Notes: a model not told the origin generated them from the sequence alone. Positions 6,381 through 52,022 are shown, counted from the stretch's first letter. The stretch: DNA of 64,000 nucleotides from Syntrophotalea carbinolica DSM 2380 (GCF_000012885.1 NC_007498.2:1860001-1924000); one strand, 5' to 3'. Translations and numbers: made by a program.

Positions 6381-6459
6381 ATAGTGTAAGAATTATTTAG
6401 TTTTAATTATATACATGCTCTGTTATTTTCCAAACAAAAATTTGAAAGGAGAAAATCAC

Positions 6460-7392
6460 ATGATAGAACAACTCGGGAGAAAGAGCCTGTTTCTGGTTTT
6501 GTTGGGTTTGTGCGCTGTTCCCTTTGTCACGACGACGGAGGGTTTGGTGGCCGGCATTCTTTTCAGTATTTTTCTCGGCAACCCATGGGCTGTTGAATCT
6601 TCTGCCTGGAGCAAAAAACTGCTTCAGATATCCGTGGTGGGGCTCGGCTTCGGATCGGGGATAGGAGAGGTCTGGAGCGTCGGCAGGGCCTCGGTTGTCT
6701 ATACCATGGTCGGCATAACTCTCACTCTTGTTTTAGGTAAATTGCTACGAAAAATTTTCCCATCCAGTCCCAAAACCGCCGCTCTTATCGCTTTCGGTAC
6801 CGCCATCTGTGGCGGCAGCGCCATAGCCGCCATGGCGCCCGTTCTAAAGTCGGAGGACGATGAAACGGCCATAGCTCTGGCCACTGTATTTACCCTGAAT
6901 GCTGTTGCCTTGCTTCTCTTCCCGACGCTGGGACATTTGTTTGACTTGAGTCAGTATCAGTTTGGAGAATGGGCCGCTCTGGCGATTCATGACACCAGCA
7001 GTGTTGTCGGAGCTGCTGCGGCTTATGGCCCCGAAGCCCTGGCTGTCGGAACCACTGTCAAGCTGACCCGGGCTATGTGGATTGCACCGGTTGCCCTCGG
7101 AACAGCTTTGGTGCTCAAATCCGATAAAAGGGCCAAGATCCCGCTATTTATCATCGGCTTTGTTGCCGCATCCATGATTCATACCTTTATTCCACAATTC
7201 GCTTCCATATATGCGATGCTCGCCGGTGTTGCCAAGCAATGCCTGGTGCTTACCCTGTTTTTGATCGGTGCGGGTTTGAGTAAATCGTTGTTGAAAAAAG
7301 TCGGATTCGCTCCGATGGCTTTGGGGCTTACGCTCTGGTTTCTGGTCGGCAGCCTGACGTTGGGAGCCATACTGGCGGGATGGATTCATTGA
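6460..7392 (+). CDS. yeiH: YeiH/UPF0324 family inner-membrane protein (putative sulfate-exporter family)
   Basis: A polytopic membrane protein of 310 residues with about ten hydrophobic segments and conserved glycine-rich stretches such as GTAICGGSAIAAMAPV and HDTSSVVGAAAAYG, typical of the YeiH (UPF0324) family. Members are annotated as putative sulfate exporters and in some species are linked to sulfite or sulfoacetate metabolism. Transport has not been shown for this protein. The start at 6460 is chosen because AAAGGAG lies 8 bp upstream; an in-frame ATG 45 bp earlier lacks such a site. It is paired with a divergent LysR gene. Confidence 0.85.
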   Translation: MIEQLGRKSLFLVLLGLCAVPFVTTTEGLVAGILFSIFLGNPWAVESSAWSKKLLQISVVGLGFGSGIGEVWSVGRASVVYTMVGITLTLVLGKLLRKIFPSSPKTAALIAFGTAICGGSAIAAMAPVLKSEDDETAIALATVFTLNAVALLLFPTLGHLFDLSQYQFGEWAALAIHDTSSVVGAAAAYGPEALAVGTTVKLTRAMWIAPVALGTALVLKSDKRAKIPLFIIGFVAASMIHTFIPQFASIYAMLAGVAKQCLVLTLFLIGAGLSKSLLKKVGFAPMALGLTLWFLVGSLTLGAILAGWIH

Positions 7393-7466: not shown

Positions 7467-8894
7467 TCAAACTTTACAGTCCTTTACCGCTTTTCCGAGG
7501 AACTCAACCCCGTGTTCCACTCTATTTGACCAATAGGAAGCGTTTATGCGAAAGCAATGACGGAAGTTCTTTTTAAGGGTGAAAATCATTCCAGGAGCGA
7601 TGCTGATGCCATTTTGCAATGCTATCTCGTAGAGTTTGTATGTGTCATAACCTTCAGGTAACTCGACCCAGAGATTGTAACCTCCCCGGGGACGACTCGC
7701 TATTGTACCTCCTGGAAAATAAAGTCCGATGACTTCTATAACGCTATCTATTTGCTTGGCATAGGTCCGTCTGACCTTCCTCAGATAAGAATCATACCCA
7801 CCGTTCACCAGGAACTCGGCAATGGCAAGTTGGGTCGGCGATGCCGTCGCAATATTGGATAGAGATTTGCGCTGCATCAGTTTCTGCATAAATTTTCCCG
7901 GTGCTATCCAGCCAACCCTATACCCCGGGGCAAGGGTCTTGGAGAAAGAAGAGCAGTGTAGCACAAGGCCCTTTTGCTCATAGGCTTTCAAAGCGTTGGG
8001 GCGGGCTTTTCCGAATGCTAAATCTCCGTAAATATCATCCTCAATCAGGGGGATGTTATTTCTTTCAAGGAGGGAGACAAGCTCCTGTTTTTTTTCTTCG
8101 GGCATGAGGCTGCCCAGCGGGTTATTGAAATTTGCAATTACGATGCAGGCCGAAACGTGATTTTGCTTGATGGTATAACTGAGAACATCAAGGTTGATAC
8201 CTTCGGCTGGGCAGGATGGGATTTCCAATATTTTCAATCCCATCCATTGTATGAACTTGAGAAAAGCGGGATGAACGGGAGTTCCGATGGCTATTGTGTC
8301 TCCCTGTCGACACACACACTGAAGGGCGAGAGTGATTGCCTCTATGCACCCCGAAGTAATAATGATGTCGTCTGCTCCCAAGGAACATCCCGCGAGAAAG
8401 GAGCGTTTTGCAATCTGGGTGCGCAATCGGGGGATCCCTTGGACATCTGCATAGGAAATACTCTGGATTCCAAAGCGTTTTGATTCCGAAGCGAGCATCC
8501 TGGTGAGTTTTTCGATGGGTAACTTATCGGGATTGGGCATGCCGATGCCCAGAGGTAAGAGCATTTGATTGGAAATGGTGTTCATCACCTGTAGCGTTGT
8601 GTCCTCAAGAACAACCTGTTTCGGTTTCAGGTTTTCCCGTAGAAGGCCACCGGAGCGTTTAATCCCGTGGGATAAGGCTTGGGGCTTGACATAAAAACCG
8701 GATTGAGGGCGGGCTTCGATCAGCCCCATGTTTTCCAGTTGCGCATAGGCCGCCATGACGGTATTGGGACTGATTTTCATTTCTCTGCTGAGAACCCTTA
8801 TGGACGGTATCCGCTCACCCTGGCGAAATGTACCCTTTCCGATCATTTCCTGAATTTTCTTGCAGACAGCCTGGTATAGCAGCGTTTTGTCCAT
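7467..8894 (-). CDS. MocR-type GntR/aminotransferase regulator
   Basis: A 475-residue regulator that fuses an N-terminal GntR winged helix (about 5-72, with IPSIRVLSREMKISPNTVMAAY) to a fold-type I aminotransferase domain. The PLP-binding set is intact: Asn258 in NFNNPLG, Asp286, Tyr289, Lys319 in SSFSKT, and Arg326. MocR proteins use the aminotransferase-like part as a PLP/amine sensor, usually activating a divergent operon and repressing themselves. Here the divergent genes are a MoxR/VWA pair. The 207-bp shared region holds an array of ACAG/CTGT half-sites that recurs upstream of the hydrogenase 1 operon, which suggests a wider target set. Confidence 0.9.
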   Translation of the reverse strand: MDKTLLYQAVCKKIQEMIGKGTFRQGERIPSIRVLSREMKISPNTVMAAYAQLENMGLIEARPQSGFYVKPQALSHGIKRSGGLLRENLKPKQVVLEDTTLQVMNTISNQMLLPLGIGMPNPDKLPIEKLTRMLASESKRFGIQSISYADVQGIPRLRTQIAKRSFLAGCSLGADDIIITSGCIEAITLALQCVCRQGDTIAIGTPVHPAFLKFIQWMGLKILEIPSCPAEGINLDVLSYTIKQNHVSACIVIANFNNPLGSLMPEEKKQELVSLLERNNIPLIEDDIYGDLAFGKARPNALKAYEQKGLVLHCSSFSKTLAPGYRVGWIAPGKFMQKLMQRKSLSNIATASPTQLAIAEFLVNGGYDSYLRKVRRTYAKQIDSVIEVIGLYFPGGTIASRPRGGYNLWVELPEGYDTYKLYEIALQNGISIAPGMIFTLKKNFRHCFRINASYWSNRVEHGVEFLGKAVKDCKV

Positions 8895-8951
8895 ATTCTA
8901 CCCCCCGTGTATATCGTCCTACAGAATACCACTTCCCGTAATTTTTATGCA

Positions 8952-9040
8952 AAAACAGTTGGTCTAAAAAAAGACGATAACAGATGCCGTTTTTTGTAAC
9001 TGTTATCATCTTTTGGTGCAGAAACTGTGGCTGTCGGTTA
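8952..9040. promoter_or_regulatory. ACAG/CTGT operator array between mocR and moxR
   Basis: A 19-mer at 8952-8970, AACAG at 8979, AACTGTTATC at 8998, AAACTGT at 9020 and CTGTCGGTT at 9031. The GATAACAG/CTGTTATC parts form an inverted repeat (8976-9007). The same elements with nearly identical spacing lie at 11946-12033, upstream of the hydrogenase operon. The position between divergent genes fits a MocR binding region. Confidence 0.5.
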
Positions 9041-9101
9041 TCACGTAGAGAATTTATATTGATGCCACACCAACCTAAATACCGATGTAAGGGGAGAAGT
9101 T

Positions 9102-10100
9102 ATGGAGTCCTCGGTTACGGTCAAACCTTCTCTGGCCATCACCATTCTCAAGAGCGGACTACACGTTAACGTTCCGATGTTTCTATGGGGACCACCTGGG
9201 ATAGGTAAATCCCAAATTGTTGCGCAAGTAGCTGCGGATTTGCGCTTACCTTTAATCGATATACGTGCCGTTCTTCTTGATCCCGTCGATTTGCGGGGTG
9301 TTCCTTCCGTTGATAACAGCGTCACACGATGGAATCCTCCGGACTTCTTGCCAACAGAAGGGGAGGGGGTACTTTTCCTCGATGAACTGTCCCAGGCGCC
9401 CGAATCTGTTCAGAGTTCGTTGTTGCAGCTTGTCCTTGATCGTAAGCTAGGCGAATACTGCCTACCCGATGGATGGAGAATACTGGCTGCAGGAAACAGG
9501 GTAATGGACGGCTCTTTTAGCAGGAAAATCAGCAAAGCCCTGGGTTCCCGTTTTGCCACTCACTTGGAATTAGCCGTGGATCTTGATGAATGGTGTGCTT
9601 GGGCGGTTGATAACGATGTTCCGGTAGAGATTAGCAGTTTTTTGCGTCTACGCCCTGAATTGCTTCATTCCTTTGATGCCAAGGCCCAGGGGAATTCTTT
9701 CCCGTGTCCGCGGGTATGGGCGAATGTCGGTAAATTTCTGGGAACATTGCCTTATGAAGCGGAGTTGCCTTTTTTTGCAGGCGCATTAGGTTTTGGCGCG
9801 GCTGCTGAATTCACCTCTTTTTTAGGAATATGCCGGGACCTTCCGGATATAGATGCCATTATGTGCAGTCCGGATGATGCTGAAATTCCCGGAGAGCCTT
9901 CAGTGCTCTATGCCTTATGTGGAGCCATGAGCCGGAAAATAAATTCAGAGAATGTTTCACGGGCCTTCCGCTATATGAAACGCTTGCCGACCGAATTTCA
10001 GGTCGTTTGGTTGCGCGATGCTCTACGTGCCGAGTCCAAGCTTGCCGGAACCGACGAATTTGCCGATTGGGCCAAAGTTAACGGCGATCTTTTGATCTGA
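9102..10100 (+). CDS. MoxR-type AAA+ ATPase
   Basis: It is 332 residues with Walker A GPPGIGKS (about 30-37), Walker B VLFLDEL (about 90-96) and a sensor-like AAGNR segment (about 131-135), i.e. the MoxR/CbbQ class of AAA+ proteins. These ATPases work with a VWA-domain partner, which follows 32 bp downstream, as chaperones that remodel or insert cofactors into target enzymes. A ribosome binding site (AAGGGGAGAAG) precedes the start. The substrate is unknown. Nearby genes of interest are the divergent mocR and, about 2.2 kb further on, the hydrogenase operon. Confidence 0.88.
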   Translation: MESSVTVKPSLAITILKSGLHVNVPMFLWGPPGIGKSQIVAQVAADLRLPLIDIRAVLLDPVDLRGVPSVDNSVTRWNPPDFLPTEGEGVLFLDELSQAPESVQSSLLQLVLDRKLGEYCLPDGWRILAAGNRVMDGSFSRKISKALGSRFATHLELAVDLDEWCAWAVDNDVPVEISSFLRLRPELLHSFDAKAQGNSFPCPRVWANVGKFLGTLPYEAELPFFAGALGFGAAAEFTSFLGICRDLPDIDAIMCSPDDAEIPGEPSVLYALCGAMSRKINSENVSRAFRYMKRLPTEFQVVWLRDALRAESKLAGTDEFADWAKVNGDLLI

Positions 10101-10132
10101 GGGCCAAGGATAATATCCAAAAGGAATGACCG

Positions 10133-11302
10133 ATGGAAAAATCCTCAAAGCTGGCAAAAGCGATTGCGAGGACGGTGCTCGATCACCCTTTTTTCGCTAC
10201 ATTGCTGCTCCGTATGCGGATTTATGAGGATGCAAACACCAAAACCGCCTGTACCAACGGAAGGGAAATCCGATACAACCCGCAGTTTGTCGACTCTTTG
10301 CACGTCGATCAGGTGGTGTTTGTTCTGGCCCATCTGGTTATGCATGTTGCCCATTTTCATCCGTTGAGGAGGGGAGGGCGAAATCTCGGCAAATTCAATA
10401 AAGCCGGTGATTACGCTATAAACGGAATCCTTAAGGATGCAGGTCTCAGCATGTTGCCTGGCGCTTTATATAAAAAAGAATTCGCCAATCTTGCCGCAGA
10501 GCAAATTTATGAACGCCTGCCCGGATCTGCGCGCGAGGAGGAACACGCGGGAACCGGTCGAGAGGACGAAGAAGGTTATCGGGATGATCCCGGTGGATGC
10601 GGCGGTTTCGAAGATGCCGGGAACGAATACGGCAAACCGCTGTCAAGGGCAGAGAGGGAACGCGAAGAAGCGGAAATTACCATTGCGATACAGCAAGCTG
10701 CCCAGGCCGCAAAAGCTCAGGGGAAATTGCCGGCTTCCCTTGAACGTCTGGTGAACGAAAGTGTTCATGCTATTCTCGATTGGCGGGAAATGCTGAGAAG
10801 TTTTATCGATCGTACGGGCCGCAACGATTATTCGTGGAAACAACCGAACCGGCGCCACATTGCCAAGGGGATCTATCTTCCGAGTTTTTGCTCAAACGGG
10901 CTCAAACCTCTTGTTGTTGCCGTGGATACTTCCGGCTCGATCGGGCAGAGCGAGTTGAATCAATTTCAGGCCGAACTGAACGATATCCTTCAAAGTTATC
11001 CTTCCACTGTCAGTGTGGTCTATTGCGATAGCGACATAACCGGAACGCAGATCTTTACCCCGGATCAATATCCTGTGGAGTTGAATGCGACAGGGTTCGG
11101 AGGTACCGATTTGTGTCCGCCTTTTGAGTGGGTCTCTAAAAACGTGCCCGATGCCGGTTGCATAATTTACCTGACAGACCTGCGGGGAAACAGTCCGGAC
11201 ATCGATCCCGGTATTCCAACTCTGTGGGTCTCCACCATCGGTGACCGGGATATCCCATCGCACTATTATCCAAAGTTCGGGCAAATCGCCACCCTTGAAT
11301 AA
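10133..11302 (+). CDS. VWA-domain protein of the DUF2201 metallopeptidase-like family
   Basis: It is 389 residues. The N-terminal half resembles the putative metallopeptidase domain of DUF2201 proteins, but the expected HExxH is HLVMH (67-71), so the catalytic glutamate is missing. A charged, probably disordered linker (about 130-185) leads to a VWA-like domain with an intact metal-binding DTSGS motif (265-269), a GGTD segment and YLTD. Together with the upstream MoxR ATPase it forms a two-gene unit of the RavA-ViaA/CbbQ-CbbO kind. The N-terminal domain probably binds rather than cleaves a client protein. That role is inferred. Confidence 0.85.
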   Translation: MEKSSKLAKAIARTVLDHPFFATLLLRMRIYEDANTKTACTNGREIRYNPQFVDSLHVDQVVFVLAHLVMHVAHFHPLRRGGRNLGKFNKAGDYAINGILKDAGLSMLPGALYKKEFANLAAEQIYERLPGSAREEEHAGTGREDEEGYRDDPGGCGGFEDAGNEYGKPLSRAEREREEAEITIAIQQAAQAAKAQGKLPASLERLVNESVHAILDWREMLRSFIDRTGRNDYSWKQPNRRHIAKGIYLPSFCSNGLKPLVVAVDTSGSIGQSELNQFQAELNDILQSYPSTVSVVYCDSDITGTQIFTPDQYPVELNATGFGGTDLCPPFEWVSKNVPDAGCIIYLTDLRGNSPDIDPGIPTLWVSTIGDRDIPSHYYPKFGQIATLE

Positions 11303-11366
11303 CTCCGGGAGGTTCGGTTTTCGGTAATGGCCACGAGATGGATCGATAAGAATATCAAGAGGAAAA

Positions 11367-11579
11367 ATGGATAAAGTGATACTTCTTACCTTGTGTCAGC
11401 GGGACAGTCTCAGGACGGGATTTCCTGAACTCTCGCGCCAATGTTTTTACCTCGGGACCGGAGAGGTCAACACCAGGCAATATCTATTGCGTTATACAAC
11501 AACCGTAGAGAATGCTCTCGCTTTACGGTTGATGGGATTATGCTCCTTTGAAAGTCAAGAAATGGAAATATGTCCATAG
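11367..11579 (+). CDS. Hypothetical protein, 70 residues
   Basis: A short frame preceded by AGAGGAAAA directly before its ATG and lying 64 bp after the VWA gene on the same strand, so it could be the third gene of that unit. No domain, signal peptide or membrane segment is recognisable. The composition is ordinary, with four cysteines. It may be a real small protein or chance coding. Confidence 0.4.
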   Translation: MDKVILLTLCQRDSLRTGFPELSRQCFYLGTGEVNTRQYLLRYTTTVENALALRLMGLCSFESQEMEICP

Positions 11580-11678
11580 GGTATAGTCGCGAAGGAGCCA
11601 GATCCATTATCCCCATGAGTATTTCTTTTGCCTTTGGATGCCACAGTTGAATAATACCTGAAATAGAGGGCTTATGGT

Positions 11679-11819
11679 ATGTCTAAAAAAAGTTGGGCTC
11701 AAATCATGACTATACTTCTCGTCATGGGCATGTTTGCATTTGTCGATATTACCTCAGAGAAAGAAATTCTTTTCCCCGAAATCTTTGTGTCCTGCTATTT
11801 CACGAGCGTAATACATTAA
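11679..11819 (+). CDS. Hypothetical small membrane ORF, 46 residues
   Basis: An ATG-led frame encoding a basic start (MSKKSW), one hydrophobic segment (about residues 9-24, ending MGMFAFVDI) and a short tail. It may be the remaining N-terminus of a larger transporter-like membrane protein or a free-standing single-span peptide. The ribosome binding site is poor. Not identified. Confidence 0.25.
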   Translation: MSKKSWAQIMTILLVMGMFAFVDITSEKEILFPEIFVSCYFTSVIH

Positions 11820-11940
11820 ATTTATCATTCATCAATGTTTCCTTCTGAAAGTGGAACGTCCATCACGTTCTATACCAGCCATCATACTCTGCATCTAGTG
11901 CATCTTCCATTATTTTGACTGTATTGCCCACCGTATTTCG

Positions 11941-11969
11941 TTTACAAAACAGTTTCTCTAAAAATTATA
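11941..11969 (+). promoter_or_regulatory. Candidate promoter of hydrogenase operon 1
   Basis: TTTACA and ATTATA are separated by exactly 17 bp. An ACAGTTT half-site falls in the spacer, and a GTTTCT-N11-AGAAAC inverted repeat (11952-11974) overlaps the -10 element, so a regulator bound here would affect RNA polymerase directly. Confidence 0.4.
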
Positions 11970-12033
11970 GAAACAGACCGTTATTCAGAGAACTGTTACC
12001 GTAATAATTTGTAACGATTGTCTCTGTCTGTTT
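11946..12033. promoter_or_regulatory. ACAG/CTGT operator array upstream of hydrogenase operon 1
   Basis: AAAACAGTT-NN-TCTAAAAA at 11946, AACAGA at 11972, AACTGTTACC at 11991 and CTGTCTGTT at 12024. The four blocks match the mocR upstream array (8952, 8979, 8998, 9031), with block-to-block distances of 26/27, 19/19 and 33/33 bp. Joint control by the MocR-type regulator is a reasonable inference. Confidence 0.5.
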
Positions 12034-12269
12034 TTAACTAAAAAACCTATCTTACATGACATTGGAAGTGGCCTTTTTCTTCAGATTTAACCGTTGGTGA
12101 TGAAATCTTTAAGGAGAAGGGGTGCCGTCTTTGATTGCAAGTTGTGGTAAGGATTTTTAATTTTAAATTTCATGCGTTTGGGTCTTAAGGGGCTTTCCCG
12201 ATACAGAAGGGCATAGGCCTCCGGGAAAGTAAATTTCATCATGGCTCACAGAAGGGAGAGATTGAATTT

Positions 12270-12791
12270 ATGCAAACAGGATCAACATGTCAGAAAAGCG
12301 GGGAATGCAGAATTCCGGATCGTGCCACGTTGCCGGCAACGCTGTATCGGCAGCTTGCGGATTTCGTAGCTACGCTGCCCACCAAGGAAGGCCATCTGGT
12401 AACGGTTCTCCACAAAGCCCAGAGTCTGTTCGGCTACCTGCCTAAAGAAGTGCAGGAGTTCGTCGCCGATCATATGGAAGTATCACTTGCCCAGGTTTAC
12501 GGTGTTGTCAGCTTCTACACCTTCTTCACCATGATCCCCAAAGGCAAGCATCCCATCTCCGTCTGCATGGGTACCGCCTGCTTCGTTAAAGGTGCTGATA
12601 AGGTTGTTGACGCCTTCAAAAACCAGCTTGGTGTTACGGTAAGCGAAGTGACCAGAGATGGTAAGTTCTCCATCGACTGTCTGCGCTGCGTTGGTGCCTG
12701 TGCCTTGGCACCGGTTGTTCTGGTCGGAGAAAAGGTCTATGCCAATGTCACGCCTGACCAGGTTAAAGACATTATTGCTGACTTCGATTAA
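12270..12791 (+). CDS. hydC: [FeFe]-hydrogenase subunit, NuoE-like [2Fe-2S] protein (copy 1)
   Basis: It is 173 residues and homologous to NuoE and to the gamma subunit of NAD-linked [FeFe] hydrogenases (HydC/HndA). The thioredoxin-like C-terminal domain binds a [2Fe-2S] cluster through CMGTAC (C-x4-C) and CVGAC (C-x3-C). It would pass electrons within the NADH-binding arm formed with HydB. It is the first gene of hydC-2Fe2S-hydB-hydA, with intergenic gaps of about 20 bp. Ribosome binding site AAGGGAGAG. A close paralogue, at several stretches nearly identical in DNA, starts the second operon at 52.6 kb. Confidence 0.92.
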   Translation: MQTGSTCQKSGECRIPDRATLPATLYRQLADFVATLPTKEGHLVTVLHKAQSLFGYLPKEVQEFVADHMEVSLAQVYGVVSFYTFFTMIPKGKHPISVCMGTACFVKGADKVVDAFKNQLGVTVSEVTRDGKFSIDCLRCVGACALAPVVLVGEKVYANVTPDQVKDIIADFD

Positions 12792-12810: not shown

Positions 12811-13194
12811 ATGACCAAGATTAATTCTCTGGCGGATCTGCAGGAAAAAGCTGAAAAACTGCAGGCTGCGAAAACAAAAACTATGAACGAAAAGGTAATC
12901 GTCAGGGTATCTCTGGCTACCTGCAGTATCGCTTCGGGCGGCAAAGAGCTTATGGCAGCCATGAAAGAAGAGTGTGCCGCCCAGGGCATCGCCAATGTCG
13001 TGTTTAAGCAGGTGGGTTGCCAGACGTACTGCTACGCCGAACCCACCGTTGAGATCACTCTACCCGGCAGGGAGCCTGTGACCTTCGGCTATGTCAAAGG
13101 CGACAAGGCTAAAGAACTGGTGCAGAAATACATCAAAAGCGGCGAACTGGTCGAAGGTGTCATTTCGACCAACTACGAGCGCGTTGTTTTTTAA
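12811..13194 (+). CDS. [FeFe]-hydrogenase small thioredoxin-like [2Fe-2S] subunit (copy 1)
   Basis: It is 127 residues with a thioredoxin-like ferredoxin fold and cluster motifs ATCSIASGG and VGCQTYCYAEP. In T. maritima-type hydrogenases this domain is fused to the N-terminus of HydB; here, as in HndB of Desulfovibrio-type enzymes, it is a separate subunit. The first about 35 residues (INSLADLQEKAEKLQ) form a probable helix. It is much more diverged from its paralogue in operon 2 than the following hydB gene is, which matters for the gene-conversion argument. Confidence 0.9.
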   Translation: MTKINSLADLQEKAEKLQAAKTKTMNEKVIVRVSLATCSIASGGKELMAAMKEECAAQGIANVVFKQVGCQTYCYAEPTVEITLPGREPVTFGYVKGDKAKELVQKYIKSGELVEGVISTNYERVVF

Positions 13195-13212: not shown

Positions 13213-14673
13213 ATGGCAACTCAGCTTAGAATAGCCACCCGCAACAGCGGGTTTATCGATCCGGAATCCGTCGAGTCTTACATTGCCGTCGGCGGCTACC
13301 AGGCTCTGGGCAAATGCCTGTCCAAAATGAAGCCTGCCGACGTTATCGAACTGATGAAAAACAGCGGTCTGCGCGGCCGTGGCGGCGCAGGTTTCCCCAC
13401 CGGTGTAAAATGGGGTTTTGCCGCCAAGTACGAGTCCGACATCAAGCATGTCGTATGTAACGCCGACGAAGGTGACCCGGGGGCATTCATGGACCGCGCG
13501 GTTCTCGAAGGCGACCCGCACAGCGTTCTCGAAGCTATGGCCATTGGCGCTTACGCCATCGGCGGCAACAAAGGCACCATCTACATCCGTGCCGAGTACC
13601 CGCTGGCCATTGCCCGTCTGAAAATGGCCATCGAGCAGGCCAAGGAAATGGGCGTGCTGGGCGACAACATCATGGGCACCGATTTCTGTTTCGACCTCGA
13701 GTTGAAATACGGCGCCGGTGCGTTTGTCTGTGGCGAGGAAACCGCCCTGATCAACTCCATGGAAGGTAACCGCGGCGAGCCTTACACCAAGCCTCCTTTC
13801 CCTGCTGAAGCCGGTTACTGGAACAAGCCGACCATCGTGAACAACGTCGAGACCCTGGCCAACATCCCGGCCATCATCATGAAGGGCGCTGACTGGTTCA
13901 ACAAGATCGGTACCGAAACTTCCAAGGGCACCAAGGTTTTCTGTATCTGCGGTAAGATCGCCAATGTCGGTCTGATCGAGGTTCCCATGGGAACCACCCT
14001 GAAAGAAGTTATCTACGATATCGGCGGCGGTATCCCCGGCGGCAAGGAATTTAAAGCCGTTCAGACCGGTGGACCTTCCGGCGGTGCTTTGACCTACAAA
14101 GACCTCGATGCTCCTATCGACTACGAAAACCTCGTGGCACGCCAGTCGATGATGGGTTCCGGCGGCATGATCGTCATGGACGAAGAAGACTGCATGGTGT
14201 CGGTTGCCAAGTTCTTCCTCGACTTCACCATGGACGAAACCTGCGGCAAATGTACGCCCTGCCGGATCGGCTCCAAGCGTATCTACGAACTGCTTGACAA
14301 AATCACCATCGGTCAGGGTACCGAGGAAGATCTGGAAAAACTGCGCAGCCTGTCGGTGAACATCAAGGACACCGCTCTGTGTGGCCTGGGCCAGACCATG
14401 CCTAACCCGGTATTGTCGACCATGCGCGTGTTCGAAGACGAGTACCGCGCGCACGTCATCGACAAGAAATGTCCTGCCGGCGTTTGCGCCGAACTGCTCG
14501 AATACACTGTTGTGGACCAGAAGTGCGTTGGCTGTACCCTGTGCGCCAAAGTCTGCCCGGTTAACTGCATCAGCGGTAAGCCGAAAGAAGTCCATGTCAT
14601 CGACCAGGCTGCATGTATCAAGTGCGGCGCATGTCTGGACAAGTGTAAGTTCGACGCCATCATCAAACAGTAA
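13213..14673 (+). CDS. hydB: [FeFe]-hydrogenase NADH-binding subunit, NuoF-like (copy 1)
   Basis: It is 486 residues. The NuoF core has the NADH/FMN site GRGGAGFPTG (55-64) and GAGAFVCGEETAL, then the [4Fe-4S] site CGKCTPCR. A C-terminal two-cluster ferredoxin domain carries CVGCTLCAKVC and CIKCGACLDKC. It oxidises or reduces NAD(H) and, in enzymes of this architecture, takes part in electron bifurcation with ferredoxin; bifurcation is inferred, not shown. The product differs from the operon 2 copy at only three positions that I can see (K38E, E74D and one E to A), far fewer than its neighbours differ. Confidence 0.93.
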   Translation: MATQLRIATRNSGFIDPESVESYIAVGGYQALGKCLSKMKPADVIELMKNSGLRGRGGAGFPTGVKWGFAAKYESDIKHVVCNADEGDPGAFMDRAVLEGDPHSVLEAMAIGAYAIGGNKGTIYIRAEYPLAIARLKMAIEQAKEMGVLGDNIMGTDFCFDLELKYGAGAFVCGEETALINSMEGNRGEPYTKPPFPAEAGYWNKPTIVNNVETLANIPAIIMKGADWFNKIGTETSKGTKVFCICGKIANVGLIEVPMGTTLKEVIYDIGGGIPGGKEFKAVQTGGPSGGALTYKDLDAPIDYENLVARQSMMGSGGMIVMDEEDCMVSVAKFFLDFTMDETCGKCTPCRIGSKRIYELLDKITIGQGTEEDLEKLRSLSVNIKDTALCGLGQTMPNPVLSTMRVFEDEYRAHVIDKKCPAGVCAELLEYTVVDQKCVGCTLCAKVCPVNCISGKPKEVHVIDQAACIKCGACLDKCKFDAIIKQ

Positions 14674-15026
14674 CGAAAGGAGACATTCCAGATGTCTATG
14701 ATGAATATAACCATCGATGGTAAAGCTACTCAGGTGCCGGCGGGTAGCACCATACTGGACGCGGCCAAAAAGCTTGACGTCCACATCCCCACCCTGTGTT
14801 TCCTGCAGATGGACGAAATGAAATTCAACAACATGACGGCTTCCTGCCGTATCTGTGTTGTTGAAGTGGAAAAACGCCGCAATCTGGCTCCCGCTTGCGC
14901 TACTCCGGTCATGGACGGCATGGTTGTCAAAACCAACACCATCCGCGTTCTCAATGCCCGTCGCAGCGTTCTCGAGCTGATGCTTTCCGACCATCCCAAG
15001 GACTGCCTGGTATGCGCCAAGTCCGG
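13213..15026 (+). repeat. Long inverted repeat, left arm (hydB plus 5' hydA)
   Basis: About 1.8 kb covering hydB, the hydB-hydA gap and about the first 110 codons of hydA are nearly identical in DNA to the reverse complement of 49790-51603. Sampled stretches differ at scattered single bases. Identity ends sharply inside hydA. Confidence 0.85.
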
Positions 15027-16449
15027 CAACTGCGAACTGCAGGATCTGGCCGAAGCTTTCGATATTCGCGAAATCGGCGTTTCAGGAGCCATGTCCACCT
15101 ATCGCCGGGACGCATCCCCGGCCATCATCCGCGATATGGACAAATGTATCCTGTGCCGTCGCTGCGAAACCATGTGTAACGATGTTCAGACTTGCGGCAT
15201 TCTTTCAGGTGTAGACAGGGGGTTTAATGCCGTGGTCGCTCCTCCGTTTGAGATGAATCTGGAAGATTCCGCCTGTACCTTCTGCGGGCAATGTGCGGCC
15301 GTTTGTCCGGTAGGCGCACTTGTTGAGCGTGATCATACTTGGGATGTCGTTACCGCTCTTGCTGATCCTGAAAAAGTAACCGTGGTGCAGACGGCACCGG
15401 CAGTACGGGCCGCCCTTGGGGAGGAGTTTGGAATCGAAGCCGGAACTTCCGTGACCGGAAAGATGGTTGCGGCATTACGGCAAATAGGTTTCGACCACGT
15501 ATTCGACACCGACTTCGCGGCCGACCTCACTATCATGGAAGAAGGTTCCGAATTCCTCGATCGTTTGACGCGGCATCTCGATGGCGACACGTCAGTCAAG
15601 TTGCCCATCATGACTTCGTGCTGCCCTGCGTGGGTAAAGTTTTTCGAGCATCAATTCCCCGACCTCCTCGATGTTCCTTCGACCGCTAAATCGCCGATGC
15701 AGATGTTCGGTGCCGTCGCCAAGTCTTATTACGCAGAACTTCTCGGTATCCCCCGCGAAAAGATGGTTGTGGTCTCGATCATGCCTTGCCTTGCCAAAAA
15801 ATACGAATGTTCCCGGCCGGAATTTATGGTCGATGGGAATCCTGACGTGGATATTACCCTTTCGACCCGTGAGTTGGCGCGTTTGATTAAACTGATGAAT
15901 ATCGAATTCAACGCCTTGCCCGATGAGGATTTTGATGCTCCTCTGGGCTATTCGACCGGTGCTGCCGTCATTTTCGGTGTTACCGGCGGCGTTATCGAAG
16001 CCGCCTTGCGAACCGCCTATGAACTGCATACGGGAGAAAAACTGGACAAAGTAGACTTTGAAGATGTTCGCGGCATGGATGGCGTTAAATCCGCGAAGGT
16101 ACAGGTTGGCTCTCATACCTTGAACATAGGCGTTGCACATAAACTCGGAAATGCACGGAAACTTCTCGAAGAAATCCGGGAAGGCAAGTCCCAATATCAT
16201 GCGATTGAAATCATGTCGTGCCCGGGTGGGTGTATCGGCGGTGGCGGCCAACCTTACCACCATGGCGATGTCGAACTCCTCAAAAAGCGTACGGCGGCGA
16301 TCTATGACGAGGATTTGGCCAAACCGGAAAGAAAGTCCCACGAAAACCCCTATATCGTTGAACTGTATGAAAAGTATCTGGGGAAACCGCTCAGTGAAAA
16401 AGCGCACCACTTACTGCATACCCATTATTTCAAGAGATCCAAGTTTTAG
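14692..16449 (+). CDS. hydA: [FeFe]-hydrogenase catalytic subunit (copy 1)
   Basis: It is 585 residues. Domains in order: plant-type [2Fe-2S] domain (Cys36, 52, 55, 69), the His-ligated [4Fe-4S] site (His101, Cys105, 108, 114), a two-[4Fe-4S] ferredoxin (Cys152-162 and Cys195-205), then the H-cluster domain with TSCCPAW (308-314), MPCLAKKYE (364-372) and ExMxCPGGCxGGGGQP (506-521). All H-cluster cysteines are present, so it should be an active proton-reducing or H2-oxidising enzyme. Ribosome binding site GAAAGGAG. Residues 1-111 equal the operon 2 copy; the rest diverges clearly, for example TSCCPAW here against TSCCPGW there. Confidence 0.95.
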   Translation: MSMMNITIDGKATQVPAGSTILDAAKKLDVHIPTLCFLQMDEMKFNNMTASCRICVVEVEKRRNLAPACATPVMDGMVVKTNTIRVLNARRSVLELMLSDHPKDCLVCAKSGNCELQDLAEAFDIREIGVSGAMSTYRRDASPAIIRDMDKCILCRRCETMCNDVQTCGILSGVDRGFNAVVAPPFEMNLEDSACTFCGQCAAVCPVGALVERDHTWDVVTALADPEKVTVVQTAPAVRAALGEEFGIEAGTSVTGKMVAALRQIGFDHVFDTDFAADLTIMEEGSEFLDRLTRHLDGDTSVKLPIMTSCCPAWVKFFEHQFPDLLDVPSTAKSPMQMFGAVAKSYYAELLGIPREKMVVVSIMPCLAKKYECSRPEFMVDGNPDVDITLSTRELARLIKLMNIEFNALPDEDFDAPLGYSTGAAVIFGVTGGVIEAALRTAYELHTGEKLDKVDFEDVRGMDGVKSAKVQVGSHTLNIGVAHKLGNARKLLEEIREGKSQYHAIEIMSCPGGCIGGGGQPYHHGDVELLKKRTAAIYDEDLAKPERKSHENPYIVELYEKYLGKPLSEKAHHLLHTHYFKRSKF

Positions 16450-16492: not shown

Positions 16493-16540
16493 GCGCTCAA
16501 AAGGATTGCGGTAAGGGTTTAAATGAAGGGGCAAAACGAC

Positions 16541-17935
16541 ATGAGCTTATCGGATCGTCAGGAAGGGCGGACCCCTGAAAAAATATTGTGTGAGGTGATT
16601 CATCTATGCGCCGATTGCGACGCTTGTCGTGACATGATGGGGGAGGATTGCGCTTTTTTTATTGAACTTTATCGCCTGAACGACCAGAAACGGGAAAGTG
16701 GTATACCCATCAGCGAAAAACAGCTACGTTACCTGGCCGAACTCTGCACTTTCTGCGGCCTGTGTCCCTGTCCGCAGGTACCGATGGATGTGATGGAGGC
16801 AAAAAGCCTCTATGTCGACAAGGAAGGCATGGCCCTGGCAACCCGTCTTCTCAGCGATGTTCCATTCATGGCCCGTCTTTGCGGAACTTTTCCCAGGCTA
16901 TCTCAGGCTTTGCAATCGAATCGATTCACCGGAGCAGTGTTACGAAAGGCGGTCCGCATTCATTCCGACCGGAACCTGCCGGTCTTTCCCAAAGATGATT
17001 TTTTCCGTTGGGCGGCAAAGCATGGTCTTGATCGCCCGCAAGACGGTAATAACCGCGTTGCCTATTTTGCCGGTTGTACCGCAGGTTACCTGTTTCCGGC
17101 CATAGCCCGCAGCGTCGTTGAGATATTGCAGCATCATGGCGCAACGGTATATGTACCCCCTCAGCAATGCTGTGGCATGCCGTATCTTGTGGAAGGCGAC
17201 CGTAAGCGTACCCTGGGACTGGCTCGGGCCAATATGGATGGCTTGCTAGGAACTCTCCGGGATGGCTATGAACTGGTCTATTCTTGCCCGACCTGCGGTT
17301 ACTTTTTAAAAAACCTACTCAAGGACCGGGCTTACTACTCCGGAATGTATCAACAATCGGTCGATGCCAGGGATGGAGAAATCAAGGTTCCCGCGCCGGA
17401 AAAAGGGAAGAACCAGTTCTGGACTCTTAGAAAGTCCGCATATCGCAATATCCTGAAGGATGACGGATACTTTTCATCCATTAATCCCATGGAACGAATA
17501 GAACTCTCCGATCATCTCCAAGATTTCGGACTGTTTCTGAGACGTTTGCAGGCCAATGGCCAGCTGGATACAGACTATTCCCGCGTATCCGGACCGATGG
17601 TTTATTTTGCTCCATGCCATTTGCGAGAGCAGAAAATCGGCCGGCCGTATCTCGATCTCCTGAAAATGATTCCCGGACTCGATATCCAGGAGATCGGTAA
17701 CGATTACGATTGTTGTGGGATGGGCGGTGTTTTCGGCTTCAAGGAACATTTCCACCAGAAGTCACTCGACCTGGGTAGAGCGTTGATGGAAAAGATCCGT
17801 GCGCAAAACCCCAGAGCCATTGTGACGGACTGTATGAGTTGCCGGTTGCAGTTCAATCACTGTTTGCCATATCCGGTCTTTCATCCGGTGGAAGTGCTGG
17901 CCCGGGCCTATAAAGGGACAGTAGAGGAAGGGTGA
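16541..17935 (+). CDS. GlpC/HdrD-like Fe-S protein with two CCG domains
   Basis: It is 464 residues from this ATG, which has GAAGGGG at good spacing; an in-frame ATG at 16523 is possible. The N-terminus holds ferredoxin-type cysteines (CADCDACRDMMGEDC and CTFCGLCPCP). Two cysteine-rich CCG domains follow (YFAGC...QCCGMP...SCPTCG, and YFAPC...DCCGMGG...DCMSC). Such proteins (GlpC, HdrD/HdrB, glycolate oxidase Fe-S subunits) move electrons to quinone or handle heterodisulfides through non-cubane clusters. It sits between hydA and hydE on the same strand, suggesting an electron-transfer or maturation role tied to hydrogenase 1. The partner is unknown. Confidence 0.82.
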   Translation: MSLSDRQEGRTPEKILCEVIHLCADCDACRDMMGEDCAFFIELYRLNDQKRESGIPISEKQLRYLAELCTFCGLCPCPQVPMDVMEAKSLYVDKEGMALATRLLSDVPFMARLCGTFPRLSQALQSNRFTGAVLRKAVRIHSDRNLPVFPKDDFFRWAAKHGLDRPQDGNNRVAYFAGCTAGYLFPAIARSVVEILQHHGATVYVPPQQCCGMPYLVEGDRKRTLGLARANMDGLLGTLRDGYELVYSCPTCGYFLKNLLKDRAYYSGMYQQSVDARDGEIKVPAPEKGKNQFWTLRKSAYRNILKDDGYFSSINPMERIELSDHLQDFGLFLRRLQANGQLDTDYSRVSGPMVYFAPCHLREQKIGRPYLDLLKMIPGLDIQEIGNDYDCCGMGGVFGFKEHFHQKSLDLGRALMEKIRAQNPRAIVTDCMSCRLQFNHCLPYPVFHPVEVLARAYKGTVEEG

Positions 17936-18000: not shown

Positions 18001-19014
18001 ATGACCAAGGAATTAATTCTTCACTGGTTAAAGACCACGGATGCAAGACAAGTCGCAAGACTATGGAAAGCTGCCGATGATGTCCGCCGGCAATATGTCG
18101 GAGACGACATCCTTCTCCGGGGACTTTTGGAGTTTTCCAATTTTTGTGACAGGAATTGTTGGTACTGTGGCCTTAGGGCGGATAATACGACGGTTGAACG
18201 CTATAGGATGTCGGAAGATGAGATCCTTGACTGTGCGCATAAAGGAATGCGGTATGGCTATGGCACCATAGTACTGCAGTCGGGTGAGGATTATGGGATG
18301 TCCGCCGCATGGATGGAAAACGTTATCAGGAGAATAAAAAGGGAGACAAACCTGGCGATTACCTTAAGTCTCGGGGAGAGAGCCGGAGCCGAGCTATCCT
18401 GTTGGAAAACAGCCGGTGCGGATCGATATCTTCTGCGTTTTGAAACCTCTAATCGGAGCCTGTACGACCAAATACATCCCCGGTGTGGCGAAAAAGGCGG
18501 CGATCGCATCGCCCTTCTTAAAAAGCTTGAAGAACTCGGATATGAGGTGGGCAGTGGGGTCATGGTCGGTATTCCCGGCCAGACGTATGAAGACCTGGCG
18601 AATGATATCGAACTTTTCCGGTCTCTCGGTTTGTCCATGATAGGGGTAGGGCCCTACATTCCCCATACAGGTACTCCCCTTGGATATGCAGATAAATTGA
18701 TGACGGTACCCGACGGCGAACAGGTTCCCTGTTCGGAAGAGATGCCATACAGGGTTATTGCCTTGACGAGACTTGTGTGCCCGTCCGCAAACATCCCGAC
18801 AACAACAGCTCTGGCAACCTTGAATATTTCCTATGGCAGGGAGTTGGGCTTGTCCCGGGGAGCAAATATTGTGATGCCTAATCTAACCCCTAAAAAGTAC
18901 AGGCCCATGTACGAAATTTATCCCTCAAAGGCCTGTATTGATGAGACTGCTGCTGATTGTCGAGTATGTATGCATCGTCGCATAGCCTCGATTGGTCGGA
19001 CAGTCGGGCGATAA
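18001..19014 (+). CDS. hydE: [FeFe]-hydrogenase maturase HydE, paralogue 1 (with accessory-cluster cysteines)
   Basis: A radical SAM enzyme of H-cluster assembly, acting on the HydG-derived Fe(CO)2(CN)-cysteine complex. It is 337 residues. The radical SAM cluster ligands are Cys49, Cys53 and Cys56 (C-x3-C-x2-C), followed by GGEDY-like and E-rich SAM-binding strands. A C-terminal C-x7-C-x2-C set (Cys312, 320, 323) matches the accessory [2Fe-2S] ligands known in Thermotoga HydE. It ends the hydrogenase 1 cluster, which has no hydF or hydG of its own. A second hydE at 47-48 kb lacks those C-terminal cysteines. Confidence 0.9.
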   Translation: MTKELILHWLKTTDARQVARLWKAADDVRRQYVGDDILLRGLLEFSNFCDRNCWYCGLRADNTTVERYRMSEDEILDCAHKGMRYGYGTIVLQSGEDYGMSAAWMENVIRRIKRETNLAITLSLGERAGAELSCWKTAGADRYLLRFETSNRSLYDQIHPRCGEKGGDRIALLKKLEELGYEVGSGVMVGIPGQTYEDLANDIELFRSLGLSMIGVGPYIPHTGTPLGYADKLMTVPDGEQVPCSEEMPYRVIALTRLVCPSANIPTTTALATLNISYGRELGLSRGANIVMPNLTPKKYRPMYEIYPSKACIDETAADCRVCMHRRIASIGRTVGR

Positions 19015-48240: not shown

Positions 48241-48263
48241 AAGAAAAAGCGACAATCATTCTT

Positions 48264-48366: not shown

Positions 48367-50124
48367 TTACAGCTGCTGACGCTTGAAGTAGTGCGTATGC
48401 AGCAGGTGATGCGCTTTTTCGCTGAGCGGTTTACCCAGGTATTTCTCGTACAGCTCAATGATGTACGGGTTTTCGTGGGATTTACGGAGCTCTTTACCAG
48501 CATCTTCGTTGTACAGAACCTGATTACGCTTGGCAAGAATTTCCATATCACCGTGATGGTAAGGCTGACCACCACCACCGATGCAGCCGCCGGGGCAGGC
48601 CATGATTTCAATAACATGGAACTGCTTTTCACCGTTCCGAACCATTTCGAGCAGTTTACGGGCATTACCCAAACCGCTGGCTACGCCAACATTCAGGGTA
48701 TGAGGACCGACCTGGATTTCAGCGGTCTTAACACCGGTCAGGGTACGAACTGCTTCGAACTCGACTGCAGGCAGGGTTTCGCCGGTGGCCAGTTCGTAAG
48801 CGGTACGCAGAGCAGCTTCCATAACGCCGCCGCTGTTACCGAAGATCGGAGCAGCACCGGTCGAAGCACCAAGAGGTGCATCGAAATCTTCATCAGGCAG
48901 TTTGGCGAAGTCGATATTCATGCGCTTGATCAAACGACCGAGTTCGCGGGTCGAGATAACGATGTCGACGTCGGGGTTACCGTTAACGGCAAATTCCGGA
49001 CGAGAACATTCGTATTTCTTGGCGAGACAAGGCATGACAGAAACGACGACCATCTTTTCGCGAGGAATGCCAAGGATTTCGGCATAGTAGCTTTTGGCGA
49101 TGGCACCAAACATCTGCTGCGGAGATTTGGCGGTCGAAGGAACGTCGAGCATGTCAGGGAACTGATGCTCGAAGAACTTGACCCAACCCGGGCAGCAGGA
49201 CGTCATAATAGGCAATCTGACGTTCTTATCACCATCGAGGAATTTCTGCAGACGGTCCAGGAATTCGGAGCCCTCTTCCATAATGGTAAGGTCGGCGGCA
49301 AAATCGGTATCGAACACGTGATCGAAACCGAGGCGACGCAATGCAGCAGCCATTTTCCCGGTAACGCTCTGACCGGGTTCCATGCCACAAGCTTCGCCCA
49401 ATGCAGCGCGAACAGCAGGAGCGGTCTGAACGACGGTGACCTTTTCGGGATCGGCGATAGCGTCGATGACCTTCCAGGTATGATCGTTTTCAACCAGGGC
49501 GCCAACGGGGCAAACGGCCGTACACTGACCGCAGTTGGTGCAAACAGTGTCGTACAAATTCATCTCGAAAGCAGGAGCAACAACTGCATCGAAACCGCGA
49601 TTTACGCCCGACAGGACACCGCAGGTCTGAACGTCGTTACACATGGTTTCGCAGCGGCGGCACAGGATACATTTGTCCATATCGCGGATGATGGACGGGG
49701 AAACGTCCTCGCGATAGGTAGACATGGCACCGGCGACACCCACTTCGCGGATACCGAAGTACTCAGCTAAGTTCTGAAGCTCACAATCTCCGGACTTGGC
49801 GCAGACAAGGCAGTCCTTGGGATGGTCGGAAAGCATCAGCTCGAGAACGCTGCGACGGGCATTGAGAACGCGGATGGTGTTGGTCTTGACAACCATGCCG
49901 TCCATGACCGGAGTAGCGCAAGCGGGAGCCAGATTGCGGCGTTTTTCCACTTCAACGACACAGATACGACAGGAAGCCGTCATGTTGTTGAATTTCATTT
50001 CGTCCATCTGCAGGAAACACAGAGTGGGGATGTGGACGTCAAGCTTTTTGGCCGCGTCCAGTATGGTGCTACCCGCCGGCACCTGAGTAGCTTTACCATC
50101 GATGGTTATATTCATCATAGACAT
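48367..50124 (-). CDS. hydA: [FeFe]-hydrogenase catalytic subunit (copy 2)
   Basis: It is 585 residues, the same length and domain order as copy 1: [2Fe-2S] domain, His-ligated cluster, two-[4Fe-4S] ferredoxin, H-cluster domain with TSCCPGW, MPCLAKKYE and EIMACPGGCIGGGGQP. Residues 1-111 equal copy 1 and then differ at many sites, including Ala to Gly in the first H-cluster motif and changes around the ferredoxin clusters (CTNCGQC for CTFCGQC). This may tune potential or partner choice. Last gene of operon 2, followed by a strong terminator. Confidence 0.95.
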   Translation of the reverse strand: MSMMNITIDGKATQVPAGSTILDAAKKLDVHIPTLCFLQMDEMKFNNMTASCRICVVEVEKRRNLAPACATPVMDGMVVKTNTIRVLNARRSVLELMLSDHPKDCLVCAKSGDCELQNLAEYFGIREVGVAGAMSTYREDVSPSIIRDMDKCILCRRCETMCNDVQTCGVLSGVNRGFDAVVAPAFEMNLYDTVCTNCGQCTAVCPVGALVENDHTWKVIDAIADPEKVTVVQTAPAVRAALGEACGMEPGQSVTGKMAAALRRLGFDHVFDTDFAADLTIMEEGSEFLDRLQKFLDGDKNVRLPIMTSCCPGWVKFFEHQFPDMLDVPSTAKSPQQMFGAIAKSYYAEILGIPREKMVVVSVMPCLAKKYECSRPEFAVNGNPDVDIVISTRELGRLIKRMNIDFAKLPDEDFDAPLGASTGAAPIFGNSGGVMEAALRTAYELATGETLPAVEFEAVRTLTGVKTAEIQVGPHTLNVGVASGLGNARKLLEMVRNGEKQFHVIEIMACPGGCIGGGGQPYHHGDMEILAKRNQVLYNEDAGKELRKSHENPYIIELYEKYLGKPLSEKAHHLLHTHYFKRQQL

Positions 50125-51603
50125 CTGGAATGTCTCCTTTCGTTACTGTTTGATGATGGCGTCGAACTTACACTTGTCCAGACATGCGCCGCACTTGATA
50201 CATGCAGCCTGGTCGATGACATGGACTTCCTTCGGCTTACCGCTGATGCAGTTAACCGGGCAGACTTTGGCGCACAGGGTACAGCCAACGCACTTCTGGT
50301 CCACAACAGTGTATTCGAGCAGTTCGGCGCAAACGCCGGCAGGACATTTCTTGTCGATAACGTGCGCGCGGTACTCGTCTTCGAAGACGCGCATGGTCGA
50401 CAATACCGGGTTAGGCATGGTCTGGCCCAGGCCGCACAGAGCGGTGTCCTTGATGTTCACCGACAGGCTGCGCAGTTTTTCCAGATCTGCTTCGGTACCC
50501 TGACCGATGGTGATTTTATCAAGCAGTTCGTAGATACGCTTGGAGCCGATACGGCAGGGCGTACATTTGCCGCAGGTCTCGTCCATGGTGAAGTCGAGGA
50601 AGAACTTGGCAACCGACACCATGCAGTCCTCTTCGTCCATGACGATCATGCCGCCGGAACCCATCATCGACTGGCGTGCCACGAGGTTTTCGTAGTCGAT
50701 AGGAGCGTCCAGATCCTTGTAGGTCAAAGCACCGCCGGAGGGGCCGCCGGTCTGAACGGCTTTGAATTCCTTGCCGCCGGGGATGCCGCCGCCGATATCG
50801 TAGATAACTTCTTTGAGGGTGGTTCCCATGGGAACCTCGATCAGACCGACATTGGCGATCTTACCGCAGATACAGAAAACCTTGGTGCCCTTGGAAGTTT
50901 CGGTACCGATCTTGTTGAACCAGTCGGCGCCCTTCATGATGATGGCCGGGATGTTGGCCAGGGTCTCGACGTTGTTCACGATGGTCGGCTTGTTCCAGTA
51001 ACCGGCTTCGGCAGGGAAAGGAGGCTTGGTGTAAGGCTCGCCGCGGTTACCTTCCATGGAGTTGATCAGGGCGGTTTCCTCGCCGCAGACAAACGCGCCG
51101 GCGCCGTATTTCAACTCGAGGTCGAAACAGAAGTCGGTGCCCATGATGTTGTCGCCCAGCACGCCCATTTCCTTGGCCTGCTCGATGGCCATTTTCAGGC
51201 GGGCAATGGCCAGCGGGTACTCGGCACGGATGTAGATGGTGCCTTTGTTGCCGCCGATGGCGTAGGCGCCGATGGCCATAGCTTCCAGAACGCTGTGCGG
51301 GTCGCCTTCGAGAACCGCGCGGTCCATGAATGCCCCCGGGTCGCCTTCATCGGCGTTACATACGACATGCTTGATGTCGGAGTCGTACTTGGCGGCAAAA
51401 CCCCATTTTACGCCGGTGGGGAAACCTGCGCCGCCACGGCCGCGCAGACCGCTGTTTTTCATCAGTTCGATAACGTCGGCAGGCTTCATTTCGGACAGGC
51501 ATTTGCCCAGAGCCTGGTAGCCGCCGACGGCAATGTAGGACTCGACGGATTCCGGATCGATAAACCCGCTATTGCGGGTGGCTATTCTAAGCTGAGTTGC
51601 CAT
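49790..51603 (-). repeat. Long inverted repeat, right arm (hydB plus 5' hydA)
   Basis: Reverse-complement counterpart of 13213-15026, with the same internal spacing (1479 bp from hydB start to hydA start in both). Near identity includes the non-coding hydB-hydA gap. Confidence 0.85.
50143..51603 (-). CDS. hydB: [FeFe]-hydrogenase NADH-binding subunit, NuoF-like (copy 2)
   Basis: It is 486 residues with the same NADH/FMN, CGKCTPCR and C-terminal two-[4Fe-4S] ferredoxin elements as copy 1, and only three amino-acid differences from it (Glu38, Asp74 and one Ala). The near identity, silent sites included, shows recent homogenisation. The two hydrogenases therefore share in effect the same NADH arm. 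Confidence 0.93.
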   Translation of the reverse strand: MATQLRIATRNSGFIDPESVESYIAVGGYQALGKCLSEMKPADVIELMKNSGLRGRGGAGFPTGVKWGFAAKYDSDIKHVVCNADEGDPGAFMDRAVLEGDPHSVLEAMAIGAYAIGGNKGTIYIRAEYPLAIARLKMAIEQAKEMGVLGDNIMGTDFCFDLELKYGAGAFVCGEETALINSMEGNRGEPYTKPPFPAEAGYWNKPTIVNNVETLANIPAIIMKGADWFNKIGTETSKGTKVFCICGKIANVGLIEVPMGTTLKEVIYDIGGGIPGGKEFKAVQTGGPSGGALTYKDLDAPIDYENLVARQSMMGSGGMIVMDEEDCMVSVAKFFLDFTMDETCGKCTPCRIGSKRIYELLDKITIGQGTEADLEKLRSLSVNIKDTALCGLGQTMPNPVLSTMRVFEDEYRAHVIDKKCPAGVCAELLEYTVVDQKCVGCTLCAKVCPVNCISGKPKEVHVIDQAACIKCGACLDKCKFDAIIKQ

Positions 51604-51621
51604 AGCTATGCTCTCCTTATA

Positions 51622-52005: not shown

Positions 52006-52022
52006 ATCGAGTTATCTCCCTA

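Follow-up and report, generated by a model that had tools for sequence, protein, structure and literature searches.

Transcriptional regulators of the MocR/GabR type (GabR, TauR, PdxR and EnuR; PMC5320631) combine a GntR winged helix-turn-helix with an aminotransferase-like domain that binds pyridoxal phosphate (PLP), and they are autoregulated from a divergent locus. Their operators consist of two to four direct or inverted boxes that contain TGT and lie approximately whole helical turns apart (PMC5320631), and the class with four boxes in the order ← ← → → covers 8 regulogs and 39 regulons (Suvorova and Rodionov 2016, PMC5320631). Their known targets belong to PLP, gamma-aminobutyric acid (GABA), taurine and ectoine metabolism and to amino compounds. 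Little is known of how syntrophic bacteria regulate their [FeFe] hydrogenases, and the regulator named in the literature that we found is Rex, which in Gram-positive anaerobes controls the genes of [FeFe] hydrogenases (PMC6391272, PMC5886521) and senses NADH/NAD+ (PMC6391272). Here, we analysed a stretch of 64,000 nucleotides of the 3,665,893-bp chromosome of the syntrophic ethanol oxidiser Syntrophotalea carbinolica DSM 2380 (NC_007498.2, 1860001-1924000; hereafter the window, whose positions are used unless the genome is named). It holds two spaced motif arrays, one between a mocR gene and its divergent moxR-DUF2201-orf70 operon, the other upstream of the [FeFe] hydrogenase operon hnd3. From sequence comparisons, the best explanation overall, which we regard as highly probable, is that both arrays are operators of MocR controlling mocR, the moxR operon and hnd3. 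This would be transcription-factor control in a fermentative hydrogen producer, as with Rex, but with a PLP-binding MocR as the candidate and an unrelated operator; unlike the known MocR/GabR-type systems, its targets would be a moxR/VWA operon and an [FeFe] hydrogenase.

Array 1 (8952-9039), in the mocR/moxR intergenic region, comprises ACAG at 8955 and 8980 and CTGT at 9000, 9025 and 9031, with spacings of 21/16/21. Array 2 (11946-12032), 5′ of hnd3, comprises ACAG at 11949 and 11973, CTGT at 11993, TTGT at 12018 and CTGT at 12024, with spacings of 20/16/21. The first-pass annotation had described four shared blocks here, and both its coordinates (AAAACAGTTNNTCTAAAAA at 8952 and 11946, AACAG at 8979 and 11972, AACTGTTAYC at 8998 and 11991, CTGTCNGTT at 9031 and 12024) and its block-to-block spacings (27/26, 19/19 and 33/33 bp) proved exact. 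Its definition of the blocks has to be redrawn: while the 19-mer is indeed present at both sites, its TCTAAAAA half lies outside the conserved motif, and the true units are ACAG/CTGT half-sites, which follow each other as → → ← ← and end outward in a doublet (CTGTGGCTGT at 9025-9034 in array 1, TTGTCTCTGT at 12018-12027 in array 2). Between the two arrays, 35 of the 40 box positions are identical as against 18 of the 48 spacer positions. The bases between the blocks are thus unconserved, as had been noticed, and the arrays are not recently duplicated DNA.

The attribution to MocR comes from the homologues of this protein (46-58% identity), which are spread over many orders and several classes within the phylum. 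Their upstream regions read ACAGATACAG-N21-ACAG-N16-CTGT-N20/21-CTGTATCTGT, an array that recurs at equal spacing in 20 mocR homologues and whose core mostly precedes the mocR start by 108-112 bp. Read toward mocR, array 1 (ACAGCCACAG-N21-ACAG-N16-CTGT-N21-CTGT) has the same plan, its core being 109 bp before the start, while array 2 has one spacer that differs by a single base and one outer half-site that reads TTGT in place of CTGT. A strict version of the pattern matched in 17 of 25 homologue genomes; in 16 it lies beside mocR, in one place per genome, the match in G019 being on another contig than mocR and apparently unrelated, and reversed controls gave 0-1 matches. The array is also present in the nearest relatives of MocR, the f50 lineage (55-58% identity). 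A scan of genome contigs yielded just two distant mocR homologues, whose context is uninformative.

Within S. carbinolica the arrays stand alone. Exactly two places in the genome match the 19-mer perfectly, the next best carrying 3 mismatches, and the composite AACAG-N12..18-AACTGTT-N20..26-CTGT occurs genome-wide only at the two arrays (reversed control, 0). A looser pattern with the homologue spacing, ACAG-N20..22-ACAG-N15..17-CTGT, has 5 genome matches. Three fall in the arrays; of the other two, at least that at genome position 824177 reads as coding sequence. A weight matrix was trained on the 20 homologue arrays, our own genome being excluded, and the window was scanned blind: array 1 scored 32.9 bits (20.4 on the other strand) and array 2 14.2 and 12.1, while the next independent site of the window scored -2.4 and the maximum over ten shuffles was 8.6. 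A profile from the same 20 arrays ranked the two arrays first within the window and found only them in the whole chromosome (E 1.6e-4 and 0.08); a search of 8800-12400 against Rfam gave no match. The arrays are real and not a product of chance, and the two together are probably the whole regulon of MocR. Conserved with mocR and unique in the genome, the array has the character of a phylogenetic footprint of an autoregulatory MocR operator, and this footprint strongly supports two earlier proposals, that these are protein sites and that the adjacent MocR is the binder of both. MocR very probably binds both arrays and controls mocR, the moxR-DUF2201-orf70 operon and the hnd3 operon. The check that had been suggested, conservation in related genomes, has a divided outcome: the array is kept before mocR homologues across orders and classes but is missing in the nearest relatives from the promoters of both hydrogenase and moxR; these relatives have no copy of this mocR either.

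MocR itself (7467-8894, minus strand, 475 residues) is a GntR winged-helix regulator with a fold-type-I aminotransferase-like part. Its N-terminal winged helix-turn-helix matches PF00392 GntR above the cut-off (residues 6-69, E 1.7e-14), its C-terminal domain matches PF00155 Aminotran_1_2 (residues 147-458, E 2.6e-35), and residues 5-448 match GabR structures near full length. The two-to-four-box operator at the mocR promoter, conserved in orthologues, is likewise that of the MocR/GabR subfamily. No NCBIfam equivalog was reached, however, among PdxR (247 bits, cut-off 320), YczR (215/487), EhuR (176/480), GabR (111/600) and PtsJ (100/573), and the cut-off for the rhizopine MocR was not reached either. 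MocR is a member of the MocR/GabR subfamily that stands outside every named equivalog tested. The PLP lysine, K319 in SSFSKTLAPGYRVGW (SSFSK, the S-x-x-K motif; K312 in GabR), is aligned and conserved, which makes a PLP-dependent switch likely, and the protein family suggests an amine- or PLP-linked control. In the alignment, asparagine N44 of the recognition helix is common to MocR and its homologues with four-box arrays. A second MocR subgroup (36-42% identity) has S/A-T in the recognition helix where the array-bearing group has N-T, and it carries a different array near the start codon, made of direct repeats only, with ACAGATACAG about 20 bp before CATAACAG. A gene for a YeiH-family transporter (6415-7392) is convergent to mocR; one distant genome likewise has a YeiH-family gene, with 58% identity, at a distance of about 2.3 kb from mocR (L106:5089-5991).

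The array geometry extends to the promoters. A simple sigma-70 scan found no significant promoter, and an alignment of -10-like hexamers anchored on the operator was informative instead. Such hexamers were required to have A at the second base, T at the sixth and at least 4 of 6 matches to TATAAT, offsets being counted from the first CTGT of the outer doublet. One was found 30 bp from the outer CTGT on the mocR side (TATTCT, 8923-8928, minus strand), another on the moxR side (TATATT, 9055-9060, plus strand), where the 30 bp run from the doublet's first CTGT, and a third before hndA3 (TATCTT, 12048-12053, plus strand), again 30 bp away from the doublet's first half. On the left of array 2, where there is no gene, ACAGTC stands at the equivalent position and no -10-like hexamer is present. 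Of the 20 homologues, 11 have such a hexamer at offset 30 toward mocR and 10 toward the divergent gene (DUF2917), with counts of 0-4 at other offsets.

We can propose the following mechanism. MocR with its PLP would occupy the four ACAG/CTGT boxes, which form an imperfect dyad, so that the outer box covers the -35 position of every promoter beside it. Through array 1 MocR would control its own gene and the divergent moxR-DUF2201-orf70 operon, and through array 2 the operon of the trimeric [FeFe] hydrogenase, with an amino compound or PLP itself as the presumed effector. The original form of moxR has an FNR-like box, and that of hnd a conserved TTGACA-containing upstream region of its own. Site identity, conservation with mocR, promoter geometry, genome uniqueness and the absence of the array from the paralogous promoters and from those of relatives were all established by computation; from them we infer the physical binding of MocR to the arrays.

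Three other origins of the arrays have to be weighed against this reading. The blocks are short and AT-rich and the region is itself AT-rich, so that a chance likeness of AT-rich intergenic DNA might be invoked; genome-wide uniqueness with its controls and the blind matrix scan with its shuffles refute it, and we give it practically no weight. The arrays might instead bind a different protein, another GntR-type regulator or a nucleoid protein, the adjacency of mocR being coincidental. Divergent regulator/target regions can hold the sites of several proteins, and three other GntR-domain proteins exist in the genome; yet of these four in all, MocR is the one beside the array, which travels with mocR across orders and classes though the divergent gene changes (DUF2917, AhpD-like or moxR), and four-box arrays are a known type of MocR operator (PMC5320631, Table 2). 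A different binder is therefore very unlikely. Somewhat less remote, although still improbable, is that only array 1 is a MocR operator, array 2 being a degenerate or inactive leftover, such as an old copy that came along in the assembly of hnd3, and hnd3 being driven otherwise. The lower score of array 2 (14.2/12.1 against 32.9 bits) and the lack of any relative with an array before hnd speak for this; but agreement concentrated in the boxes and not in the spacers is the pattern of selection on boxes, and the -10-like hexamer is found at exactly +30 and on the gene side only. Several points nonetheless tell against our preferred explanation. Array 2 is the weaker match, with a TTGT box for CTGT and an A-B spacing of 20 instead of 21; about 215 bp separate the proposed -10 from the start of hndA3 further downstream, and another promoter could intervene; and among the genomes examined only this one has the array before a hydrogenase, which leaves the hnd3 link resting on a single genome. 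The weak -35 at nearly all these promoters, discussed below, suits activation without proving it.

The sign of control is less settled than the identity of the regulator. The outer box overlaps the -35 position, where the match is poor (2 or 3 of 6) in 26 of 28 such promoters, a pattern that suits an activator taking the place of the -35 contact. We modestly favour an activation of moxR and hnd3, together with autoregulation, over repression. In the variant with repression, which shares the core of our explanation and which we consider possible but the less probable of the two, MocR would bind both arrays, repress hnd3 and moxR by occlusion, and be relieved by an amine. The overlap of the outer boxes with the -35 region speaks for it, and EnuR, of the MocR/GabR type, is a repressor of ectoine genes (PMC8739950). 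Poor -35 hexamers, on the other hand, are those expected under an activator, and GabR, from the same subfamily, is an activator of gabT and a repressor of its own gene according to the title of Edayathumangalam 2013 (cited in PMC8739950).

The hydrogenase downstream of array 2, called hydrogenase 1 by the first-pass annotation, is indeed a hydrogenase, but its published name is hnd3 (HndD-3; Pcar_1602-1605, in the cluster Pcar_1602-1606, PMC3543383). The operon, on the plus strand, encodes the thioredoxin-like [2Fe-2S] subunit HndA3 (12270-12791; Pfam 2Fe-2S_thioredx, 3.4e-49), HndB3 (12811-13194; no Pfam match, 78.7% identity with the paralogue from the hnd2 cluster), the NuoF-like NAD(P)H-binding subunit HndC3 (13213-14673; Pfam) and the catalytic [FeFe] subunit HndD3 (14692-16449; group A6, NF040763 with 902.6 bits for a cut-off of 765; PF02906, PF02256). 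This HndA/B/C/D set with a catalytic H-cluster domain is that of a trimeric NADH-linked [FeFe] hydrogenase (group A6, NCBIfam). A CCG-domain oxidoreductase (16523-17935, plus strand; Pcar_1606, PMC3543383) and the radical-SAM maturase hydE3 (18001-19014, plus strand; Pfam, PMC3543383) are likely members of the operon. The paralogous hnd2 operon (48370-52541, minus strand; Pcar_1633-1636) has the same four subunits (HndA 94%, HndB 79%, HndC 99.4% and HndD 83% identical), but lacks a MocR array and has instead a TTGACA-containing upstream stretch conserved in relatives. Indeed, before the hnd operons of 13 family genomes, ours included, and before our own paralogues, the array was found only at hnd3. 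In published proteomics, Pcar_1633/1634 (hnd2) are abundant and constitutive (PMC4275255), which fits a constitutive hnd2 beside a regulated hnd3, although the mass-spectrometric assignment may be ambiguous given the 99.4% identity of the HndC copies.

The divergent operon comprises a moxR-like AAA+ ATPase gene (9102-10100, plus strand; Pfam AAA_5, 3.1e-10), a gene for a DUF2201 metallopeptidase/VWA protein (10133-11302, plus strand; DUF2201_N 9.7e-99, DUF2201 4.1e-45), both of them accessory second copies, and orf70 (11367-11579, plus strand, 70 residues). While orf70 has no Pfam or NCBIfam match, it is conserved behind moxR-DUF2201 in the family (55-66% identity) and is thus a real gene of the module. 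Within the order, the module is confined to the family, save for distant DUF2201 homologues. The other copy in the same genome adjoins 630691-631851 (genome positions, near 631 kb). In all nine complete copies outside the window, those of relatives together with our own second copy, an FNR/CRP-like palindrome (TTGAY-N4-RTCAA) lies about 95-280 bp before moxR; upstream of the window copy there is none. In the DUF2201 tree the 631-kb copy falls inside its own genus and the window copy outside, with moderate support. The sole FNR-like palindrome of the window is at 48263, between hndD2 and hydE2.

The regulator seems foreign to this lineage. On the MocR tree it forms a long branch (0.81) beside f50, which belongs to another class, and not beside the homologues of its own order, and this mocR is absent from the other members of the genus. 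The GC content is mostly 45-50% at 7.0-10.5 kb and falls to 39% at 11.5-12.0 kb, whereas the hydrogenase genes have 49-57%. MocR probably came from a source outside the order and then gained control of two paralogous operons of accessory character; in the simplest account, this looks like the recruitment of an acquired, fast-evolving regulator. In several Desulfuromonadia-type genomes the gene divergent from mocR encodes DUF2917, and in f50 it is replaced by that of an AhpD-like protein of 83-97 residues with a C-terminal CC motif. These uncharacterised MocR-DUF2917 loci (48-53% identity), some with an EamA transporter, share with ours the operator architecture, the distance to the mocR start and the promoter geometry, but differ by their target (DUF2917, or AhpD-like in f50), by a single array per genome under the strict pattern and by the lack of a hydrogenase link. 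None of the own-order mocR loci nor the f50 lineage has the moxR-DUF2201-hydrogenase set beside mocR, the sole exception being one genome (L103), where a partial match (40%) to the N-terminus of HydA lies at 5 kb from mocR. A search of our own genome for DUF2917 gave no match, but the control was also silent and the absence is unproven. The hydrogenase link is lineage-specific. It is an evenly balanced proposition that this MocR group keeps its operator architecture and swaps the target gene between lineages, and that here a fast-evolving MocR from another lineage took over a hydrogen-evolving [FeFe] hydrogenase and a MoxR/VWA chaperone-type operon, with hydrogen disposal switched according to how much of an amino compound or of PLP is present.

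Boxes in direct and inverted orientation are well known in MocR operators; here it is the target that is unexpected. Judging from titles and abstracts, we found no literature linking MocR to hydrogenase regulation, although an earlier computational regulon prediction is possible; hydrogen metabolism is probably governed here by a type of control that had not been described for it. If our explanation holds, hydrogen release would be tied to nitrogen/amine or vitamin B6 status, and it would become clear why the organism retains two closely similar hydrogenase operons that lie 30 kb from each other and differ in their promoters. The conserved operator would also spell out the DNA code of a large and uncharacterised group of MocR regulators with DUF2917, AhpD-like or hydrogenase targets, whose function becomes directly testable, and the two arrays offer a ready promoter pair for footprinting and reporter work.

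Further observations concern the hydrogenase paralogues. Just above 52541 (minus strand), the upstream region of hnd2 has a TTGACAG-containing stretch that is conserved in the genus. Unlike hndA3, hndA2 has a conserved 5′ extension of 27 codons in frame (MLKKIL.FFRKPKPN.DLA..KERKNS), preceded by a strong ribosome-binding site. Finally, three HndC/NuoF copies (13213-14673, 50146-51603 and a third in an hnd-type locus near genome position 2161457) are 99.4% identical while the neighbouring subunits are 75-94% identical, which suggests gene conversion.

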